In this document: positions 9,445-35,382 of the stretch, piece after piece
Layout of the letters: the number at the start of each line of letters is the position of its first letter
Position numbering within the stretch: the first letter of the stretch is position 1
Assembly (NCBI RefSeq): GCF_009733815.1
Contig: NZ_WNXY01000005.1
Span: forward strand, 62,001-126,000
DNA length: 64,000 nucleotides
Source: Pseudactinotalea suaedae
Lineage (GTDB): Bacteria; Actinomycetota; Actinomycetes; Actinomycetales; Beutenbergiaceae
Direction: 5' to 3'
Position numbers and translations under genes: made by a program
Notes under the pieces: generated by a model
The model's database searches: none
What the model saw: the letters and a program-made list of their open reading frames with translations, nothing else
Told to the model about the DNA's origin: nothing

Positions 9445-10989
9445 GTGACGACGATGCTGCGGGTGGTCGAGGTCGCGGAGGAGGTGGCCGCGACGTCCTC
9501 GAAACGCGCCAAGGTCGCCTCGTTGGCCGGGCTGCTGAGGGAGCTCGAGCCCGATGAGGTGGTCCCCGCGGTCGGGATGCTGGTCGGGCGTCCGAGGCAG
9601 GGGCGGACCGGGGTGGGCTGGCGCACCCTCAGCAGCGTGCGTGGCGAGCCCAGCCCGACGGCGACCCTCACGGTCCTCGACGTCGATCTCGCCCTCCAGG
9701 CGCTCGCCCAGGCCGGTGGGAGCGGCTCCGCCGCGGTACGGACCGAGACGCTGCAGGCGCTGCTGGCAGCGGCCACGTCCGCCGAGCAGGACTTCCTCAC
9801 CCGCGTGCTGCTCGGTGACATGCGCACCGGGGCGCTGGACGCCGCCGTGCTCGATGCCGTGGCGGCAGCGACCGGGATCGCGGCGACCACCGTGCGTCGC
9901 GCCGCGATGCTCACGGGCGCGGTCGCGGAGACCGCGCGACTCGCGCTCGCCGGCGCCGATCTCGGCGCGATCGGCCTGACGCCCGGCGTCCCGGTGCTGC
10001 CGATGCTGGCCGGCACCGCGGCCACGGCCTCCGAGGCGGTGGCGACCGCGGGCGAGGCCTCGGTCGAGGCCAAGCTCGACGGTGCCCGGCTGCAGGTGCA
10101 CCGCACCGGCGGCACCGTGCGGGCCTACACCCGCAGCCTCGCCGACATCACCGACCGCGTCCCCGAGGTGGTCGCGCTGGTCGAGTCCTTCCCCGGTGGT
10201 GACCTGATCCTCGACGGCGAGACCCTCCGGCTCGGTGAGGACGGCAAGGCGAAGCCGTTCGCCGAGACGATGAGCAGGTTCGGCCGCCACACCGAGGTGG
10301 CCGGGCAGCCGGCCTCGCACCTGTCCACCTTCTTCTTCGACATGCTCCACGCCGATGGCGAGGACCTCCTCGGAGTGCCACTGGGCCGCCGTCGGGAGCT
10401 GCTGGCACAGCGGGTGGGCGCGCACCTGGTGCCGGGTGAGGTGACCGATGACCCGGAGGTGGCCGAGCGCGTCCTCGCAGAGGCGCTGGCTGCCGGGCAC
10501 GAGGGCGTGGTCGTCAAGGGGATCGACTCCACCTACGAGGCCGGTCGCCGCGGCAAGCGGTGGCTGAAGGTCAAGCCGGTGCTGACGTTCGACCTGGTGG
10601 TGCTCGGCGCCGAGTGGGGTTACGGCCGCCGCACCGGCTGGCTGTCGAACCTGCACCTCGGAGCGCGGGACCCCGAGGGCGAGTTCGGCGAGGCCGGTGG
10701 TTTCGTCATGGTCGGCAAGACGTTCAAGGGCCTGACCGATGCGCTGCTGCGCTGGCAGACCGAGTACTTCCCGACGATCGCGCGCCCCGGCCCCGGCACA
10801 CCCGGGGTGGTCATGGTGGAGCCGAGCACCGTCGTCGAGATCGCGATCGACGGCGTGCAGCGCTCCACCCGTTACCCGGGCGGGGTGGCGCTGCGGTTCG
10901 CGCGCGTCAAGCGGTACCGCACCGGCGCGCACGCCAAACCACCCGCGGAGGCCGACACGATCGACTCGCTCCGAGCGTTGCTGCGCTGA
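9445..10989 (+). CDS. ligB: ATP-dependent DNA ligase
   Basis: Seals nicks in duplex DNA through a lysyl-AMP intermediate. This 514-aa protein matches the mycobacterial LigB type: an N-terminal alpha-helical DNA-binding region (1-200), then the nucleotidyltransferase core with motif I EAKLDGARLQVHR (adenylated Lys near residue 211), motif III LILDGETL, motif IV EGVVVKG and motif V RGKRWLKVKPV, followed by an OB-fold region. The start is GTG 9445, just after the repeat array. It is probably auxiliary to an NAD-dependent LigA elsewhere. It stands alone, and its own promoter is not clear. Confidence 0.93.
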   Translation: MTTMLRVVEVAEEVAATSSKRAKVASLAGLLRELEPDEVVPAVGMLVGRPRQGRTGVGWRTLSSVRGEPSPTATLTVLDVDLALQALAQAGGSGSAAVRTETLQALLAAATSAEQDFLTRVLLGDMRTGALDAAVLDAVAAATGIAATTVRRAAMLTGAVAETARLALAGADLGAIGLTPGVPVLPMLAGTAATASEAVATAGEASVEAKLDGARLQVHRTGGTVRAYTRSLADITDRVPEVVALVESFPGGDLILDGETLRLGEDGKAKPFAETMSRFGRHTEVAGQPASHLSTFFFDMLHADGEDLLGVPLGRRRELLAQRVGAHLVPGEVTDDPEVAERVLAEALAAGHEGVVVKGIDSTYEAGRRGKRWLKVKPVLTFDLVVLGAEWGYGRRTGWLSNLHLGARDPEGEFGEAGGFVMVGKTFKGLTDALLRWQTEYFPTIARPGPGTPGVVMVEPSTVVEIAIDGVQRSTRYPGGVALRFARVKRYRTGAHAKPPAEADTIDSLRALLR

Positions 10990-11099
10990 CCTCGGCCGGT
11001 CCCCGGCGGTCAGGACCGATGGGGAGCTCTGCCCTCGACCCCGATCCGGGCACCACCTAGCGTGGCGGGCGAGATGGCGGCGACGGAGGGCCAGGCGCA

Positions 11100-11993
11100 G
11101 TGACAGCAGGGACCTCGAGGCCGGAGACGTCGGCGTCGGCGCTGGGGCGGCTGCGAGCCGACGTCGAGGGTGTGGTCGAGGTGCTGGCAGCAGGCCGCGC
11201 CGCACTGCCGGCGCTCGCGATGGGTACCGACGCCGAGAGCCTCGTGCACGTGGGCATGGACCGGCACGGCACGGTCGTGCGCCTGGATCTCGACCCGCAG
11301 TGGCGACGCACGCTGCCCAGCGACGGGCTGGCCGGCGCGGTCTCCGACGCGCTGCAGCAGGCCGCCCAGGTGCGGACCGGCGACTGGGCTGCCGCGATCG
11401 CCGCAGCCGTCCCCAGCGGGTCGAGCACGGCACGTCACCTCGGCTCCTCCCAGCAGCGCGTGCGCGGGCCCCAGCCTCCGATGGCCGGGCCGGTCCGAGT
11501 TCGCCGCGAGGGCTACGCCCCGGTGGTCACCATCGCCCCCGGCTGGGCCGGCACGGCCGACGACGGCGCGGTCCACGAGGCGCTGCTGGCCGCGCTGATC
11601 CCCACGCCGCCGGTACGCCCACGCGCGCCGAGCGCGCGTCCCGGCGAGGTGGTGGACCTGGCGCTGGAGGCGCGAGAGTCGCTGCTCGAGGCTGCCACGG
11701 GCCTGCCGGGATTCATGCGCGGCCCGATCCAGGACGCCGTCGAGCGTGTGCACGACGACGTCGCACAGGCCCTGACGCTGCCGCTGGCGAGCGAGGGGCT
11801 CGCCTCGGGCGAGCTCGGCGCCTACGCGTCCCGGTTGCACGAGTGCCTGTGGCTGGCGGACCGGCCGGCGGGGTTGCCCGAGGCGTCGGAGGTGTGGGCG
11901 GCAGCGGCAGCGGGACTCGCGGACGGGTTGGCCACGGCGCGCAGACCGTCGCGGCCGATCCTCGCGCGCCTGCGGCGCCGCGCCCCGGTCTGA
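11100..11993 (+). CDS. Hypothetical protein with a YbaB/EbfC-like segment
   Basis: Protein of 297 aa without a confident family. Residues 45-85 (HVGMDRHGTVVRLDLDPQW followed by a DGLAGAVSDALQQA helix) resemble the strand-turn-strand plus helix of actinobacterial YbaB/EbfC-like proteins, which are often linked to nucleoid or secretion loci. The C-terminal half is Ala/Leu-rich and helical. There is no signal peptide or membrane segment. GTG 11100 is preceded by GGAGGG at 11086-11091. A TAGCGT hexamer at 11059-11064 may be the -10. It converges with the STAND ATPase gene, 30 bases apart; whether they cooperate is unknown. Confidence 0.6.
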   Translation: MTAGTSRPETSASALGRLRADVEGVVEVLAAGRAALPALAMGTDAESLVHVGMDRHGTVVRLDLDPQWRRTLPSDGLAGAVSDALQQAAQVRTGDWAAAIAAAVPSGSSTARHLGSSQQRVRGPQPPMAGPVRVRREGYAPVVTIAPGWAGTADDGAVHEALLAALIPTPPVRPRAPSARPGEVVDLALEARESLLEAATGLPGFMRGPIQDAVERVHDDVAQALTLPLASEGLASGELGAYASRLHECLWLADRPAGLPEASEVWAAAAAGLADGLATARRPSRPILARLRRRAPV

Positions 11994-28652: not shown

Positions 28653-29699
28653 CTATGTCGGCGTGCCCGGGTCGGGCTGAGCCAGCCAGTGCTCGACGGC
28701 GGAGCGCATCCGTTGCTTGCTCGACTCGCTCGCGCGGCTCGCGTCGATCGAGGACCGTGCCAGCGACGCCAGCTCGGGATCGGTGAGGCCGTGGACGTCG
28801 CGCGCGAGCTCGTACTGCGCGAGCAGCCGCGACCCGAAGATCAGCGGGTCGTCGGCGCCGAGCGCGAGCCTGGCGCCGGCATCCAGCAGCCGCCGCAGGG
28901 GCACGTCGGCCAGGGTGGGGTAGACGCCCAGCGACACGTTCGACGTGGGGCACACCTCCAGTGCCACGCCCGCGTCGACGACCCGGCGGAGCACGCCCGC
29001 GTCCTCGCTCACGCGGACGCCGTGGCCGATCCGGTCCGGGTGCAAGGACGCCAGCACCTCGGCCACGTGGTCGGCGCCGAGCAGCTCGCCACCGTGCGGG
29101 ACCGAGGCCAGCCCCGCGCGGCGCGCGATGGCGAACGCGGGGGCGAACGCCGTCGTCACGCCTCTGCGCTCGTCGTTGCTGAGCCCGAACCCGATGACGC
29201 CGTCCGGGTCGGCGTGGAGGGCGGCGAGGCGCGCGAGCGTGCGCGCGTCGAGCGGGTGCCGCATCCGCGAGGCCGCGACGATCACGCCGACCTCGATGCC
29301 GTGCCGCTGAGCGGAGGTCCGGGCGGCGTCGACCACGAGCTCGAGCGCGGGCGTCAGGCCGCCGACGTAGGGCGCATAGGAGGTCGGGTCGACCTGGATC
29401 TCCAGCCGGACGGAGCCCTCGGCGGCGTCGGCTGCGACCGCCTCGTCGACGATCCTGCGCATCACGGTCTCGGAGCGGACCACGGCCCGCGCCGCGTCGT
29501 ACATCCGCTGGAACCGGAACCAGCCGCGCTCGTTGGCCGGGAGCCGTACCGGGTCGCCGTCGACCACGGCGTCGAGCAACGACTCCGGAAGGCGCCGCCC
29601 CTGCTCCCGCGCGAGCTCGACCAAGGTCGTCGCCGCCATCGACCCGGTGAAGTGCAGGTGCAGATGGGCCTTGGGGAGGGTGCGCAGGTCTCGGGCCAT
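28653..29699 (-). CDS. add: Adenosine deaminase
   Basis: Zinc amidohydrolase converting adenosine to inosine in purine salvage, 348 aa, cytosolic. Metal motif KAHLHLHFTGS stands near the N-terminus (E. coli has an L-E-G-S variant). SVPHGGE, DRIGHGVR and CPTSNVSLG follow, and metal ligand GADDPLIFG is near residue 280. A relaxed, adenosine-deaminase-like substrate range cannot be excluded because of the F-T-G change. Its start faces the phosphotransferase gene across a 102-base region with a palindromic site. Confidence 0.9.
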   Translation of the reverse strand: MARDLRTLPKAHLHLHFTGSMAATTLVELAREQGRRLPESLLDAVVDGDPVRLPANERGWFRFQRMYDAARAVVRSETVMRRIVDEAVAADAAEGSVRLEIQVDPTSYAPYVGGLTPALELVVDAARTSAQRHGIEVGVIVAASRMRHPLDARTLARLAALHADPDGVIGFGLSNDERRGVTTAFAPAFAIARRAGLASVPHGGELLGADHVAEVLASLHPDRIGHGVRVSEDAGVLRRVVDAGVALEVCPTSNVSLGVYPTLADVPLRRLLDAGARLALGADDPLIFGSRLLAQYELARDVHGLTDPELASLARSSIDASRASESSKQRMRSAVEHWLAQPDPGTPT

Positions 29700-29741: not shown

Positions 29742-29767
29742 ATGAGAGACCTCTCATCCTGGTCTCA
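29742..29767. promoter_or_regulatory. TGAGAG/CTCTCA regulatory site A (upstream of the phosphotransferase operon)
   Basis: Perfect inverted repeat ATGAGAG-AC-CTCTCAT at 29742-29757. A further GTCTCA at 29762-29767 lies exactly 11 bases after CTCTCA (29751-29756), a direct-repeat spacing typical of OmpR/PhoB-type regulators. CATGGT at 29785-29790 follows after a 17-base gap and may be the -10, so the second repeat could occupy the -35 position. The same motif recurs at 31405 and 32049. Confidence 0.75.
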
Positions 29768-29801
29768 TCCGGACCGCGCCCCGGCATGGTGGAGTACGAG
29801 C

Positions 29802-31028
29802 GTGACCACGTCTGCGCCCGCACGCCACGCCGCCCCCACGGGGTTCGGCGAGGACGCGGACCTGGCGCTCCTGACCGGCGCCGAGTCGGTCGAGATCGTG
29901 CGGGCGGCGCTCGTCGGGGAGGGCGAGGCCCCGCAGGACCTGCGGGTCGCCGTCGCCGCGGTCCACCACCGCCCCGGTGCGGGCGTGAGCGTCTGCTACG
30001 ACGTCACCCACGCCGCTGCCCCCGAGGGTGAGGTGCTCGTCGCCAGCACCGCGCCGGTGGCACGCTCCGACCGCACCGCGGCCGTGGCCGTGCTCGACGA
30101 CGGCGTCCGGACCCTGCGCGTCTGGCGGCGTGCCGACGACCCGGCGCTCCCCGGGCTGCGTGCGGCGCTCGACCCCCGCGTCGTCGCGGGCTGGCTCGGT
30201 CGCGCCGAGCTCCCGGCGCTCAGGGTGCTGTCGTACCGGCCGACGCGCCGGGCGGTCGTCGTCGCCGAGCTCGCCGACGCGACCTGCTACCTCAAGATCG
30301 TCCGGCCGCGTCGAGCCGCCGAGCTGATCGCCCGGCACGAGGCGCTGCGGGGCTCGATGCTCCCGGCGCCCGCGATGCTCGGGGAGCCCGAGCCCGGCGT
30401 CGTGCTGCTCGCGGCGGCACCGGGGCGTTCGCTCGCGCAGGCTCTCGCCACGGGTGATGCGGCGCAGGTCCCGGCTCCGGAGCAGGTGCTGGCCGCGCTG
30501 GACTCGCTGCCGGCACCGGTGCTCGAGCTGCCGCTGCGTCCCTCCTGGGTCGACCGGCTCGACTTCCACGCGGCCGCCGCGCGCAGCGCGCTGCCGGCGC
30601 GCGCCGACGAGATCGACGACGTGGCGAGCCGCGTCGCCGACGTGCTCGCGGCGGTGCCGGTCGCCGCCGTCGTCCCCACGCACGGTGATCTCAACGTGGC
30701 CAACCTGTTCGTGGAGGATGCCCGCCCGGCCGCCGTGATCGACGTCGACGCGCTGGGCCCCGGCCGCCGCGCCGACGACCTCGCCACGCTGCTCGCGCAC
30801 CTGCTGGTGCTGCCCGCGCTCGCGCCGCACATCTACACCGAGGTGCCCGCGGTCGTTCACCGCTGGTATGCCGCGTTCGCCGCCTCCGTCGACCGGACCG
30901 AGCTCGACGCCCGAACCGCCGCCGTGCTGGTCTCGCTGGTCGCGGGAGCGAGTCCCGAGCAGGCCAACGCCCGGCTGGATCTCGCCCTGGCCGCGCTCGA
31001 GCGCGCCGACGCGGGGGAGCGGTCATGA
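29802..31028 (+). CDS. Aminoglycoside-phosphotransferase-family protein
   Basis: 408-aa protein with an APH/choline-kinase-like C-terminal half. The catalytic Brenner motif is VPTHGDLNVANLFV (His about residue 294), and the metal-binding VIDVDALGPGRRADDLA follows. A Lys-containing ATP strand CYLKIVRP lies near residue 165. The first 130 residues are an Ala/Val-rich extension that resembles maltokinase/aminoglycoside-kinase caps. Substrate is unknown; resistance should not be assumed. The stop overlaps the start of the next Pro/Ser-rich gene by 4 bp, so both are controlled by site A. Confidence 0.82.
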   Translation: MTTSAPARHAAPTGFGEDADLALLTGAESVEIVRAALVGEGEAPQDLRVAVAAVHHRPGAGVSVCYDVTHAAAPEGEVLVASTAPVARSDRTAAVAVLDDGVRTLRVWRRADDPALPGLRAALDPRVVAGWLGRAELPALRVLSYRPTRRAVVVAELADATCYLKIVRPRRAAELIARHEALRGSMLPAPAMLGEPEPGVVLLAAAPGRSLAQALATGDAAQVPAPEQVLAALDSLPAPVLELPLRPSWVDRLDFHAAAARSALPARADEIDDVASRVADVLAAVPVAAVVPTHGDLNVANLFVEDARPAAVIDVDALGPGRRADDLATLLAHLLVLPALAPHIYTEVPAVVHRWYAAFAASVDRTELDARTAAVLVSLVAGASPEQANARLDLALAALERADAGERS

Positions 31029-31408
31029 GGTCGCGGACCCTCTGGATGGTGACCGGAGCGCTGGGCATCGTCGGGGTCTCCGGGGTGGCGATCGTCAACG
31101 CCGCAGCGCCGGACGACGTCTCGGGCGGTGGAGCGGTCGTGAACGAGACCGGCACCGACCCTGCGACCGGCTCGAGCTCGAGCTCGAGCTCGAGCTCGAG
31201 CACGGCCGGCCCGACCGCCCCGCCCACCGCCACACCGACGGTGCCGACCTCCCCGAGCGCCAGCGAGGGACCCACCGACTCACCGACCTCGACCGCGGCA
31301 CCCACGCCTGCCGCGCCGTCGGCGCCCTCGCCGGTGCCGGCCGACTCGCCCGCCTCGGCACCGGCCGACTCGCCCGCCTCGGCGGCGAGCGCCGACAGCG
31401 GCGGATGA
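31025..31408 (+). CDS. Exported Ser/Pro/Ala/Thr-rich low-complexity protein, paralogue 1
   Basis: 127 aa. The basic N-terminus MRSRTLWMVTGALGIVGVSG and a hydrophobic stretch ending in NAAA make a signal peptide or signal anchor. The rest is almost only Ser, Pro, Ala, Thr and Gly, with a run of ten Ser, and should be disordered. It ends SAASADSGG, like the two downstream paralogues. No LPXTG signal or catalytic motif is seen. ATG 31025 overlaps the phosphotransferase stop, so it depends on that transcript. It is probably a cell-envelope or secreted polymer-like protein. Confidence 0.8.
   Translation: MRSRTLWMVTGALGIVGVSGVAIVNAAAPDDVSGGGAVVNETGTDPATGSSSSSSSSSSTAGPTAPPTATPTVPTSPSASEGPTDSPTSTAAPTPAAPSAPSPVPADSPASAPADSPASAASADSGG
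31170..31202. repeat. GAGCTC simple-sequence repeat
   Basis: About five tandem GAGCTC hexamers inside paralogue 1, encoding the poly-Ser run. The unit is its own reverse complement. Because six is a multiple of three, slippage would change Ser-tract length without breaking the frame. Confidence 0.9.
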
Positions 31409-31461
31409 GAGACCTCTCACCAACCTGAGAGCTCTCTCATGGAGGCCTCCCGGAGGTCTCA
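31405..31461. promoter_or_regulatory. TGAGAG/CTCTCA regulatory site B (upstream of paralogue 2)
   Basis: Two inverted repeats, TGAGAG-AC-CTCTCA (31406-31419) and TGAGAG-CT-CTCTCA (31426-31439), are 20 bases apart. From 31434 three direct units follow at exact 11-base steps: CTCTCA (31434), GCCTCC (31445) and GTCTCA (31456). The first half-site overlaps the stop codon of paralogue 1. The ATG of paralogue 2 is 65 bases further on. Confidence 0.75.
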
Positions 31462-31525
31462 CCCACGATCGCGAGGCTGATCGCATCAGCCACAGGCCAG
31501 CGCCACACAGAGCAGGAGCAGCACC

Positions 31526-31969
31526 ATGAACAAGCGGACCGCATGGATCGTCACCGGCGCCCTCGGAGTCGTGGGGGTCAGCATCGGCGCGATCGCAGCC
31601 GCAGCCGACGCCTTCGACCCCTCCTCGGGTGACGGAGCGGTGCTCCAGGCTCCCTCGGAGACCAGCACCGAGCCGACGGCCGACCCGACCACACCGCCGA
31701 CGACCGACCCCACCACCGACCCCGGACAGGTCGCCTCCGACTCGGCGACGACCGCCGTGTCCGCGGTCTCGACCGCCTCGCCGGCCTCGCCGGCGACCGC
31801 CGTCAGCCCAGCCAGCCCGGTCAGCCCGGTCAGTGCGCCATCGCCTGCCAGCCCTGCGACCCCGCCGTCGCCCGTCAGCCCGGCCAGCGCGCCCTCACCC
31901 GTGAGCGCGGCGTCACCGGCCTCGCCCGCGAGCCCCGCCTCGGCCGCGTCGGCCGACTCCGGCGACTGA
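31526..31969 (+). CDS. Exported Pro/Ala/Ser-rich low-complexity protein, paralogue 2
   Basis: 147 aa. It begins [20 protein letters not shown]; the hydrophobic region ends in AAAAD, a good signal-peptidase-like site. The exported part has an acidic start (DAFDPSSGDGAV), a Thr/Asp/Pro region, then repeated [11 protein letters not shown] units and the shared end SAASADSGD. No cysteine, enzyme motif or sorting signal is present. GGAGCAGC upstream of ATG 31526 is the ribosome binding site. A strong hairpin follows. The neighbouring kinase/regulator pair and site B suggest stress- or signal-controlled export. Confidence 0.82.
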   Translation: MNKRTAWIVTGALGVVGVSIGAIAAAADAFDPSSGDGAVLQAPSETSTEPTADPTTPPTTDPTTDPGQVASDSATTAVSAVSTASPASPATAVSPASPVSPVSAPSPASPATPPSPVSPASAPSPVSAASPASPASPASAASADSGD

Positions 31970-31972
31970 GGA

Positions 31973-32035
31973 CTCCGCACGGCCCTCGTGCGGAACGAGC
32001 AGAGCGACCCCGGGACCCCCGCCCGGGGTCGCTCT
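31973..32035 (+). terminator. Two hairpins after paralogue 2, likely terminator
   Basis: A 6-bp hairpin CCGCAC/GTGCGG at 31975-31993 is followed by a 14-bp perfect stem (AGAGCGACCCCGGG and its complement, 32001-32014 with 32022-32035, 7-base loop). A TGTGT tract follows rather than a T run, as is common at high GC. Confidence 0.75.
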
Positions 32036-32048
32036 GTGTCGACCGGGA

Positions 32049-32681
<633 letters not shown>

Positions 32682-32699
32682 CCTCGTGGAGGCGACCTC

Positions 32700-32732
32700 G
32701 GCCGGTCCCGGGCTCCCCGCCCGGGGCCGGCC
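32700..32732 (+). terminator. Hairpin after paralogue 3
   Basis: GGCCGGTCCCGGG (32700-32712) pairs with CCCGGGGCCGGCC (32720-32732) around a 7-base loop, with one mismatch or wobble. It lies 18 bases after the stop and separates the paralogue from the kinase gene. Confidence 0.65.
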
Positions 32733-32874
32733 CCCGCACGTGGTGGCCGAGCACGGCGGCACCGCCCACAGCGACGGATCGCCCACCGAGGAGATCCCGC
32801 CGGTGCCCGGTGCACGCCGGCTCCCGGCGACCGCCGAGACCACGGAGCCCCCCGCCGTCCTCGATACTGAGGCG

Positions 32875-34425
32875 ATGAGCGGCGAGCCGGTGACGCACGA
32901 GGGCGGCGCGCGCCGTCGTCGCCTCGGCGGCCGGCAGGGCTGGAGCGTCCGCACCCGTGTCCTCACGGCGCTGACCGTGCTCAGCGGGCTCGCGCTGCTC
33001 GTGGCCGGGACCACGGCGTACGTGCTCGAGCGAGACCGGCTCGACGACCTCATGCGGGACAGCCTGGAGCGCAGCAGCGCGGAGTTCCGCACGCTCGCCA
33101 GCGAGGGGGTCGACCCGAAGACGGGTGCGCCGTTCCAGAACGTCACCGAGCTCCTGCTGGTCGCCCTGGGCCGCATCGTGCCCGGTCCCAACGAGGGTAT
33201 GGCGGGCTTCGTGGAGGGTGTGCACACCTACAACGCGCCGGCCGAGTACAACTACCAGATGCAGCGAGACCGCGAGCTGATCGCGCTGCTCGGGCCGCTC
33301 ACCGAGGAGCGTGCCGAGCTGCTGAGCACCGCGCCGGACGAGGCGAGCCTGATTCGGGTCATCGAGACCGAGCAGGGCTCCTACAGGGTGGCGATCGTCC
33401 CCGTGGTGGGCCCGGCGGGGGACACCGGCGCGTTGGTGCTCGCCTTCGACCGCACCGCCGAGCACGCCGGGCTCGCCCGCAACTACACCACCTACGCGCT
33501 GGTGGCCCTCGGCGCGGTGCTGCTCATCGGAGCGCTCGGCTTCCTCATCGTGAGCGACCTGCTGAAGCCGGTCGCGCTGCTGCGCAGCGCTGCCTCCCAG
33601 ATCAGCTCCTCGGACCTCTCGCGCCGCATCGAGGTGGTCGGCAACGACGACCTCGCGGTGCTGACGAGCACCGTCAACGGCATGCTCGACAGGCTCGAGC
33701 ACGCGTTCTCCTCCCAGCGTGAGCTGCTCGACGACGTCGGTCACGAGCTGCGCACACCGCTCACCGTGGTGCGTGGCCACCTGGAGCTGATGGAGGTGAG
33801 CGACCCCGAGGACGCCGCCGCGGTGCGCGCGATCGCGCTGGACGAGCTCGACCGCATGAACTCCCTGGTCGAGGAGCTGATCACGCTCGCCAAGTCGCGT
33901 CGCCCCGACTTCGTCAGCCTGCAGCGCACCGACGTCGCCGTGCTCACGGACGAGATGCTGACGAAGTCGCGCCCGCTGGGGGTGCGGCGCTGGACGCTGG
34001 ACTCGCTCGCCGAGGTCGAGCTCGACCTCGACCCGCGCCGGATCACGCAGGCCTGGCTGCAGCTGGTGAGCAACGCCGTCAAGTTCTCCGAGGACGACAG
34101 CACGGTCGCTCTCGGCTCCTCGGTCGACGACACCTCGGTGCGGCTGTGGGTGCGTGACGAGGGCGTGGGCATCGCACCGGCCGACCAGCACCGCGTGTTC
34201 GAGCGGTTCGTGCGTGCCGACGGCACGGCCGAGGGCTCCGGGCTGGGGCTGACCATCGTCCGCTCGATCGCGCAGGCGCACGGCGGCGACGTCGAGCTCG
34301 AGTCCGCGCCCGGCCGGGGCAGCACCTTCACGATCGTGCTGCCGCGCACCGCGGCGAACTCCGAGCGAGGCGATCTCGAGACCATGATCGACGGCGACCC
34401 CCTGAAGGAGCCAGTGCAGCCATGA
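32875..34425 (+). CDS. Sensor histidine kinase (HAMP/HisKA/HATPase)
   Basis: 516-aa membrane kinase. Residues 1-27 are cytoplasmic and Arg-rich; TM1 is about 28-55. An extracellular sensor of about 145 residues follows, then TM2 about 203-228 and HAMP. HisKA carries phospho-acceptor His290 in DDVGHELRTPLTVV. The ATPase domain has N box LVSNAVKF, G1 VRDEGVGIAP and G2 GSGLGLTIV. ATG 32875 is chosen because GATACT (32863-32868) lies 6 bases upstream, a leaderless start; an in-frame extension upstream is unlikely. The stop overlaps the regulator gene by 4 bp. It likely senses an envelope signal and controls the three adjacent exported proteins. Confidence 0.93.
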   Translation: MSGEPVTHEGGARRRRLGGRQGWSVRTRVLTALTVLSGLALLVAGTTAYVLERDRLDDLMRDSLERSSAEFRTLASEGVDPKTGAPFQNVTELLLVALGRIVPGPNEGMAGFVEGVHTYNAPAEYNYQMQRDRELIALLGPLTEERAELLSTAPDEASLIRVIETEQGSYRVAIVPVVGPAGDTGALVLAFDRTAEHAGLARNYTTYALVALGAVLLIGALGFLIVSDLLKPVALLRSAASQISSSDLSRRIEVVGNDDLAVLTSTVNGMLDRLEHAFSSQRELLDDVGHELRTPLTVVRGHLELMEVSDPEDAAAVRAIALDELDRMNSLVEELITLAKSRRPDFVSLQRTDVAVLTDEMLTKSRPLGVRRWTLDSLAEVELDLDPRRITQAWLQLVSNAVKFSEDDSTVALGSSVDDTSVRLWVRDEGVGIAPADQHRVFERFVRADGTAEGSGLGLTIVRSIAQAHGGDVELESAPGRGSTFTIVLPRTAANSERGDLETMIDGDPLKEPVQP

Positions 34426-35084
34426 GCCAGATCCTGATCGCCGAGGACGAGGGACGCATCGCCTCGTTCGTCGCCAAGGGGCTGAAGGCCGCCGGGTACT
34501 CGCCGGTGCACGTCAGCACCGGGCGCGACGCGATCGACCTCGCCTCGACCGGCGACTTCGACCTGCTGATCCTCGACCTGGGGCTGCCCGACATCGACGG
34601 CTTCGACGTGCTCGACGTGATCCGCAGCAGCGGTGTGACGATGCCGGTGATCATCCTGACGGCCCGGAGCTCGGTCACCGACACCGTGGCCGGCCTCGAG
34701 GGCGGTGCCGACGACTACATGGCCAAACCGTTCCGTTTCGAGGAGCTGCTGGCACGGGTGCGGCTGCGGCTGCGCAGCGAGGCAGCACCCGGCGGCGAGA
34801 CCAACGTGATCAGCCACGCCGACCTCTCGCTCGACCTGCGCACCCGCAGGCTCAAGGTCGGCGCGAGCGAGGTCGACCTCTCGGCGCGGGAGTTCACGCT
34901 CGCGGAGACCTTCCTGCGCAACCCGGGCCAGGTGCTCAGCCGCGAGCAGCTGCTGTCGAGGGTGTGGGGCTACGACTTCGACCCGGGCAGCAACGTGGTC
35001 GACGTGTACGTGCGCTACCTGCGCAAGAAGGTCGGAGCACAGCGGATCGAGACGGTCCGCGGCATGGGCTACCGGCTGGTCTGA
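34422..35084 (+). CDS. OmpR-family response regulator
   Basis: 220 aa. The receiver domain has acidic pocket EDE (8-10), phospho-acceptor Asp52 (LLILDLGLPDIDG), Thr in VIILTARSS and Lys in YMAKPFRFEE. The C-terminal winged helix includes the recognition region LSREQLLSRVWGYDFDPGSN and ends VRGMGYRLV. It is coupled to the kinase gene by ATGA overlap. OmpR-type proteins bind direct repeats about 11 bases apart, which matches sites A, B and C. Binding itself is inferred. Confidence 0.95.
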   Translation: MSQILIAEDEGRIASFVAKGLKAAGYSPVHVSTGRDAIDLASTGDFDLLILDLGLPDIDGFDVLDVIRSSGVTMPVIILTARSSVTDTVAGLEGGADDYMAKPFRFEELLARVRLRLRSEAAPGGETNVISHADLSLDLRTRRLKVGASEVDLSAREFTLAETFLRNPGQVLSREQLLSRVWGYDFDPGSNVVDVYVRYLRKKVGAQRIETVRGMGYRLV

Positions 35085-35203: not shown

Positions 35204-35276
35204 AGGGCAGTGGCGCAATTGGTAGCGCACCGGTCTCCAAAACCGGCGGTTGTGGGTTCGAGTCCCTCCTGCCCTG
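35204..35276 (+). tRNA. tRNA-Trp (anticodon CCA)
   Basis: 73-nt tRNA with acceptor AGGGCAG pairing with CTGCCCT, D-arm GGCGCAATTGGTAGCGC, and anticodon stem CCGGT/ACCGG with loop CTCCAAA (CCA at 35237-35239). The T-stem has one T-T mismatch as read. It precedes secE, the usual actinobacterial arrangement. TACACT at 35117-35122 with TTCGAC at 35093-35098 is a plausible promoter. Confidence 0.96.
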
Positions 35277-35382
35277 CCAGGTCCCGATCGCGAGGTCGCT
35301 CCGAACGCGTCCCGCAGGGCCCGATCGCCCCGCCGATGTTGCATCGGCAGGCGCCGCACCCCCGTCCAGTGAGGAAGTACGA

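Follow-up and report, generated by a model that had tools for sequence, protein, structure and literature searches.

What does a two-component pair control when it stands beside three unannotated genes for low-complexity, exported-type proteins? The question is raised by a locus of Pseudactinotalea suaedae (family Beutenbergiaceae, order Actinomycetales) within a 64,000-nucleotide stretch of contig NZ_WNXY01000005.1, the whole of which we call the window. Next to a sensor histidine kinase (HK) and an OmpR-type response regulator (RR) lie genes for an aminoglycoside phosphotransferase (APH)-fold kinase-like enzyme and for three paralogous Ser/Pro/Ala-rich proteins, named PAS1, PAS2 and PAS3 (Table 1). 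An earlier note on this DNA had proposed that the pair controls the three paralogs. We consider it probable, from sequence comparisons, that HK–RR, the APH-fold kinase and PAS1–3 form one small regulon in which RR directly activates these genes through repeat sites. This is the best reading because the repeat follows the pair, also precedes distant PAS copies and ends about 10 bp before the −10 element. The genes, the sites, their conservation and their co-localization are direct observations.

Palindromes and 11-bp repeats before the kinase and PAS genes

TGAGAG hexamers are under-represented in the window (14 on both strands versus 34.9 expected from shuffles), and nine of the 14 fall in three spots totaling 183 bp (binomial P = 2.5e-20, for spots drawn after the hexamers had been seen). 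The exact palindrome TGAGAGnnCTCTCA occurs four times in the 4.54-Mb genome, each time before the kinase–PAS1 operon, PAS2 or PAS3, with two other places at one mismatch, no match for a reversed control and 0.32 copies expected under a first-order model of the window. Site A, at 29743, lies 1.28 kb before PAS1 and should control the kinase–PAS1 operon, because the PAS1 start overlaps the kinase stop codon. All 20 family loci in which we located the kinase gene have a palindrome with at most two mismatches before it, and many of them carry a second CTCA 11 bp past that palindrome. The kinase start codon lies at about the transcription start expected from site A (29742–29802), so the kinase mRNA may be leaderless.

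Promoters were aligned on the palindrome in 32 loci, and the consensus, computed over 49 promoters chosen by the repeat itself, was GATGAGAGnnCTCTCATCnnnnnCTCCTCnnnnTCTCATC, which combines the palindrome with 11-bp direct repeats about 10 bp before a −10-like nAnnnT. The aligned promoters have an A in common at +39, and their T at +43, about 10 bp past the last repeat, is invariant; the −35 position falls on the middle repeat, and the last one lies between the expected −35 and −10. PhoB sites end about 10 bp before the −10 element, the layout of PhoB-type activation. The earlier note had pointed to direct repeats of about 11 bases of the OmpR-family type, and the spacing in these repeat-selected promoters is indeed OmpR/PhoB-like. 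Its statement that a TGAGAG/CTCTCA array marks all candidate promoters holds for kinase–PAS1, PAS2 and PAS3 and fails for HK–RR, with no such hexamer in the gap before HK (32682–32874). An interpretation of site B as an RNA structure was rejected (fold z = −1.29, with 21 of 200 shuffles folding as well).

In the circuit that we infer, the membrane protein HK would sense something outside the cytoplasmic membrane and phosphorylate the adjoining RR, which would bind TGAGAGnnCTCTCATC and the CTC repeats that follow it at 11-bp spacing, some 10 bp upstream of the −10 element. Bound RR would activate the APH-fold kinase together with PAS1 from site A, PAS2 from site B and PAS3 from site C. The PAS proteins would then be exported by way of their N-terminal signal sequences and be released or held at the surface, where such presumably disordered Ser/Pro/Ala polymers, possibly O-mannosylated, could form a soluble or surface-bound coat.

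Table 1. Features of the locus in gene order, with positions counted from the first letter of the window
Feature	Position	Strand	Remarks
Adenosine deaminase-like gene	28653–29699	−	name presumed
Site A, candidate kinase–PAS1 operon promoter	29743–29768	+	exact palindrome TGAGAG-AC-CTCTCA; second half-site GTCTCA 11 bp on
APH-fold kinase-like enzyme	29802–31028	+	408 aa; GTG start
PAS1, exported-type Ser/Ala/Pro/Thr-rich protein	31025–31408	+	127 aa
Site B	31406–31462	+	two TGAGAGnnCTCTCA palindromes (31406, 31426); TCTCA direct repeat 31435–31462; −10-like GAGGCT 31473–31478
PAS2, exported-type Ser/Ala/Pro-rich protein	31526–31969	+	147 aa
Strong hairpin 3′ of PAS2, terminator-like	31996–32041	+	RNA fold of 31975–32042: −51.2 kcal/mol, z −7.05
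Site C	32049–32105	+	imperfect TGAGGAACGTCTCA; palindrome 32069–32082; TCTCA direct repeat 32078–32105; −10-like GAGTGT 32116–32121
PAS3, exported-type Ser/Ala/Pro-rich protein	32175–32681	+	168 aa
Hairpin 3′ of PAS3, terminator-like	32700–32732	+	RNA fold of 32682–32745: −45 kcal/mol, z −3.16
HK, sensor histidine kinase	32875–34425	+	PAS/PDC-like outer domain between two long helices; HAMP, HisKA, HATPase
RR, OmpR/PhoB-family regulator	34422–35084	+	presumed binder of sites A–C, judged from co-conservation
tRNA-Trp	35204–35279		followed by what we take to be secE and nusG

Distribution in the family and across the order

Within a drawn subset of 24 family genomes that includes the window's own, an HK orthologue is present in 23, at 42–84% identity in the 22 besides the window's (G, L and f numbers below denote genomes, loci and families). 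PAS genes lie at the locus in 21 of the 24, the exceptions being G002, G005 and G007, with as many as four copies at one locus, and all 21 genomes carry the HK orthologue. Contig breaks divide the locus in G009 and G012, which are therefore uninformative on whether PAS adjoins HK. G007, the sole genome without an HK orthologue, has neither a PAS match nor an exact palindrome, and in G002 HK follows an Asp-rich exported-type open reading frame (ORF) that itself lies behind an exact palindrome. Of 44 exact palindromes in the 24 genomes, 31 are found at the locus or, in G002, before the HK orthologue. The pair runs in the same direction as PAS in the window and in G013 and converges with PAS in the other family loci showing both, which by gene order is an inversion of HK–RR that kept the neighbors together. 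Adenosine deaminase, kinase, HK, RR, secE and nusG form one group in 18 of the 24 genomes; the module adjoins secE and nusG in 18, a stable place for fast-evolving genes, with the tRNA-Trp between them in the window.

Homologs of the paralogs lacking the pair, which the earlier note had named as counterevidence, did not appear among the 24 family genomes, PAS homologs outside the family not having been searched for. Its central proposal, control of the paralogs by the pair, is thus supported in part: by the co-occurrence in 21 of 21 family genomes, by a repeat that follows HK–RR across the order and by a site position that suggests activation.

We then turned to 396 genomes drawn from the order, in which an HK orthologue was defined as a match at E ≤ 1e-60; 178 genomes had one, and HK places were listed for part of them. 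The strict repeat pattern TCTCAn8TCCn6TCTCAY, set after the family sites and 20 loci outside the family (nine with near copies) had been seen, occurs in 63 copies in 54 genomes, against one copy of its reversed form. Taken together, the copy counts of TGAGAGnnCTCTCA versus the reversed control, the strict repeat counts and the first-order model led us to reject a chance motif. HK is no more than 5 kb away from 16 of the 22 family copies of the repeat, counting the two in the window, and from 32 of the 41 copies outside the family. Among the 15 copies that are more distant or unplaced, two (G214, G193) adjoin an HK seen in flanking DNA and two (G009) are on a split locus; three copies precede PAS genes away from the pair, on two other contigs in G017 and 732 kb away in G021. 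Outside the family the repeat is found in 34 of 155 HK-positive versus four of 217 HK-negative genomes (Fisher P = 1.5e-10), and a recount without the 20 genomes seen beforehand gives 23 of 32 copies near HK and 25 of 135 versus four of 217 genomes (P = 4.4e-8), in tests that treat related genomes as independent, which they are not. The repeat stands beside HK in eight families of the order (f1, f3, f6, f9, f10, f15, f19 and f20).

An exported low-complexity protein is encoded downstream of 50 of 61 repeat copies versus 23 of 1,220 random positions in the same loci, with start codons chosen blind to composition but favoring an ATG near +93, where this distance had itself been taken from these data, and with low-complexity thresholds set after examples had been seen. 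Of the 11 exceptions, two lead into DUF4956 genes and one into a low-complexity protein that narrowly misses the threshold; four adjoin HK but show no clear target gene of this type (L139, L223, L224 and L228), and four have no link to HK. At position 10684 of L234, in G274, the strict repeat lies directly behind RR and before a gene that is DUF4956-like by eye and a VTC-domain gene.

Exact palindromes in other lineages precede HK itself (L143, L144) or an Asp-rich gene before HK (L107, L154, G002), which suggests autoregulation of HK–RR in these lineages. Small exported-type ORFs with Asp-rich tails, a composition that suggests cation binding, lie upstream of HK in L083 (8168–8572), L086 (about 10796–11290), L088 (6504–6953), L152 (4812–5240) and L154 (6599–7096). 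A separate HK-based search for related loci returned 37, of which the first seven are actinobacterial with 38–84% identity and the remainder reach at most 35%, among them two Actinomycetota metagenome-assembled genomes at 33%.

The exported-type proteins, the APH-fold kinase and the HK–RR pair

As the earlier note had described, PAS1–3 begin with a common exported-type N-terminus, continue into a body that lengthens from one to the next and end alike (SADSGG, SADSGD and SADSGD, respectively); the bodies are of Ser/Pro/Ala/Thr/Val composition. They contain 19–20% Ser, 19–26% Ala and 15–18% Pro, lack cysteine and have no Pfam or NCBIfam match at E ≤ 0.1. PAS2 and PAS3 share 69% identity where they match; PAS1 has diverged further, and a PAS3 query did not retrieve it. 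Across the N-termini of 23 family members, mean proportions of nonsynonymous (pN) and synonymous (pS) differences are 0.219 and 0.584 (pN/pS 0.37), and the N-termini look to be under purifying selection and the PAS ORFs look like real genes because pN is below pS in 252 of 253 pairs.

Collecting proteins by upstream site, hydrophobic start and composition gave 60 distinct sequences, all of which fit a loose [AVSTG]xA rule, in a set preselected for hydrophobic starts and rich in Ala. None of the 60 has a cysteine after residue 35, and one loose SADSGD-like pattern fits the C-terminal ends of 47. Their bodies vary, with SPVSAK or SAQS repeats, TPND repeats, Asp-rich tails and also Gln/Lys/Arg-containing stretches, a range that the earlier description missed along with the spread beyond the family. 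The proteins are probably exported through the Sec pathway. The genome encodes a 608-aa protein O-mannosyltransferase (PMT, 31.1 bits; PMT_4TMC, 54.6 bits; both above cut-off). This enzyme, together with the palindrome and further 11-bp repeats before a glycosyltransferase gene in G004 and G006, makes a glycosylated polymer at the surface plausible.

The earlier description also left out the APH-fold kinase gene, which lies under the same sites. Its AlphaFold2 model (predicted local distance difference test (pLDDT) 94.1) matched APH(3′)-Ia best in Foldseek (PDB 4ej7; E = 6.4e-9), followed by TvaE, solved with TvaLP (PDB 8jsu; E = 5.4e-8). Residues K165, H294-G-D296, D314 and D316 are the same in all 37 sequences aligned, that of the window among them. 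We take the Lys, HGD and DxD residues to be catalytic, and the enzyme would thus resemble APH(3′) aminoglycoside phosphotransferases and TvaE in predicted fold and presumed catalytic residues. It differs from APH(3′) resistance enzymes in scoring far below the NCBIfam equivalog cut-off (30 of 205 bits). In 45 of 75 scanned loci, some of which lack HK, there is a relative whose alignment covers 280 residues or more. Some APH-fold enzymes act on peptide precursors. A broader proposal, which we regard as doubtful, is an order-wide module whose main output is a fast-evolving family of exported disordered polymers, with the kinase acting on their Ser-rich tails before export and the signal setting both amount and charge of a polymer at the surface.

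The adjoining kinase/OmpR-type regulator pair recognized earlier was confirmed by Pfam, with HAMP, HisKA and HATPase_c in HK and a receiver and Trans_reg_C in RR, all above cut-offs, and by its domains HK–RR is a two-component system of the OmpR/PhoB type, a known kind. An alignment of 33 RR sequences (48–90% identity to that of the window) has 53 invariant columns, including D52, presumably the phospho-acceptor Asp. The sensor fragment, 211 residues without a cysteine, is predicted (pLDDT 95.3) to form a domain between two long helices; its fold search gave weak matches, two of them at E ≤ 0.001, the best to a WalK model (1.3e-4) and others to PAS/PDC-type sensors. We rejected an assignment to MtrAB on the NCBIfam equivalogs (MtrB model, 190.3 of 450 bits; MtrA model, 179.1 of 300 bits).

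Alternative explanations and known systems

Several observations count against the regulon as proposed. The window's HK–RR pair has no site of its own, and in G005, which has HK–RR, the stretch from RR to adenosine deaminase holds neither a kinase nor a PAS gene. Some genomes with no HK match (G025, G099, G112 and G125 among others) also carry the kinase gene, so that it is, by gene content, a frequent but not exclusive partner of HK–RR. Outside the family, 121 of 155 HK-positive genomes lack the strict repeat; therefore, targets differ or the site drifts. One repeat copy (G001; L233, position 4642) precedes a DUF4956 gene, for seven of the 63 copies we see no link to the pair, and 13 of the 44 exact family palindromes lie elsewhere, five before a glycosyltransferase gene, five with a CG core and three in other places, some of them probably operators of other regulators.

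These other palindromes have contexts of their own. Exact TGAGAGnnCTCTCA precedes a glycosyltransferase gene in five family genomes (L235 5460, L239 6034, L236 6253, L237 5657 and L238 5499), lying inside the longest reading of that gene in L237; a second glycosyltransferase gene follows in four of the five loci, and clear further 11-bp repeats are present at the L235 and L239 sites. In L236 and L238 the same gap holds a divergent gene that we take to be GntR-like, and those palindromes may be its operators. The CG-core form TGAGAGCGCTCTCA, which to our eyes resembles a LacI-type operator, lies beside a solute-binding-protein-like gene in L172 and L174 near 1501, and its CG core is also listed in G008, G009 and G011.

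Such contexts bear on the idea that a different, unlinked regulator binds the palindrome and repeats, with HK–RR a mere neighbor. TGAGAGnnCTCTCA alone can serve others, given the five CG-core family copies, of which the two examined adjoin a solute-binding-protein-like gene, and the two copies between a glycosyltransferase gene and the divergent, presumably GntR-like gene. However, the repeat tracks HK across genomes and positions, with or without the loci seen before, and G007, without an HK orthologue, has neither exact palindrome nor PAS match, leaving this idea very improbable. A different reading of the same sites is that RR represses and the genes are released when the signal is absent: a protein bound at the last repeat, between the expected −35 and −10, could block polymerase. 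We find this improbable, as a middle repeat at −35 and repeats ending about 10 bp before −10 instead reproduce the PhoB-type activation layout.

It is also conceivable, though unlikely, that the exported disordered proteins are not a structural or protective polymer but signaling accessories between the envelope and the HK sensor domain, feeding back on HK. Exported low-complexity ORFs lie at most 3.5 kb from HK in eight further families (f2, f3, f6, f9, f10, f14, f15 and f17), an Asp-rich exported ORF directly precedes HK in several lineages, just behind a palindrome in three (G002, L107 and L154), and extracts of one study provide a precedent for a secreted protein modulating a kinase in HbpS–SenS–SenR (PMC4991794). 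Bodies that vary in length and composition, in up to four copies per locus and sometimes away from the pair, nevertheless suit an output more than a specific ligand. The remaining thought, that the three PAS ORFs are chance frames because low-complexity, GC-rich repetitive DNA opens many, was rejected as next to impossible in view of the pN/pS of the N-termini and the similar starts, ends and upstream sites of the 60 proteins collected by site and composition. Direct activation of the kinase and PAS genes by RR remains our preferred reading.

Under this reading, unannotated low-complexity ORFs become a defined candidate regulon with a precise DNA code, and a natural Ser/Pro/Ala-type exported polymer, its inducing signal and a possible modifying kinase become directly testable in strains kept in the laboratory. 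If the polymers act like engineered PAS tails, in hydration and shielding, they would be a natural precedent for these. The open-access literature that we searched held no published description of the system, and the outputs and DNA code of HK–RR are new to us.

Among known systems, Apa-like O-mannosylated glycoproteins are likewise Ala/Pro-rich actinobacterial proteins, a comparison drawn on composition. In the extracts used here, PolS–PolR of Microlunatus phosphovorus and PhoP of Streptomyces also pair an actinobacterial response regulator with 11-bp-spaced direct repeats, with phosphate and polyphosphate gene targets (PMC6754071), but their repeat is GTTCACnnnnn, whereas the window-type repeat is CTCTCATC/CTCCTC, and a PhoP/PolR-type site was rejected on this sequence. 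The CutRS and CssRS secretion-stress systems of Streptomyces, as far as the extracts describe them, are likewise actinobacterial two-component pairs with an extracellular sensor domain, with a CutR site of TAWATAAA, targets including HtrA-type proteases and two conserved cysteines in CutS (PMC12802291). The sites here are TCTCATC-type, so a CutR-type site was rejected, and the sensor fragment differs from CutS in being free of cysteine. HbpS of streptomycetes, characterized in the extracts as an octameric iron/haem-related secreted protein (PMC4991794, PMC3754957), resembles the present system in that a secreted protein works with a two-component pair, SenS–SenR, and differs from it in that the exported proteins here are of low complexity.

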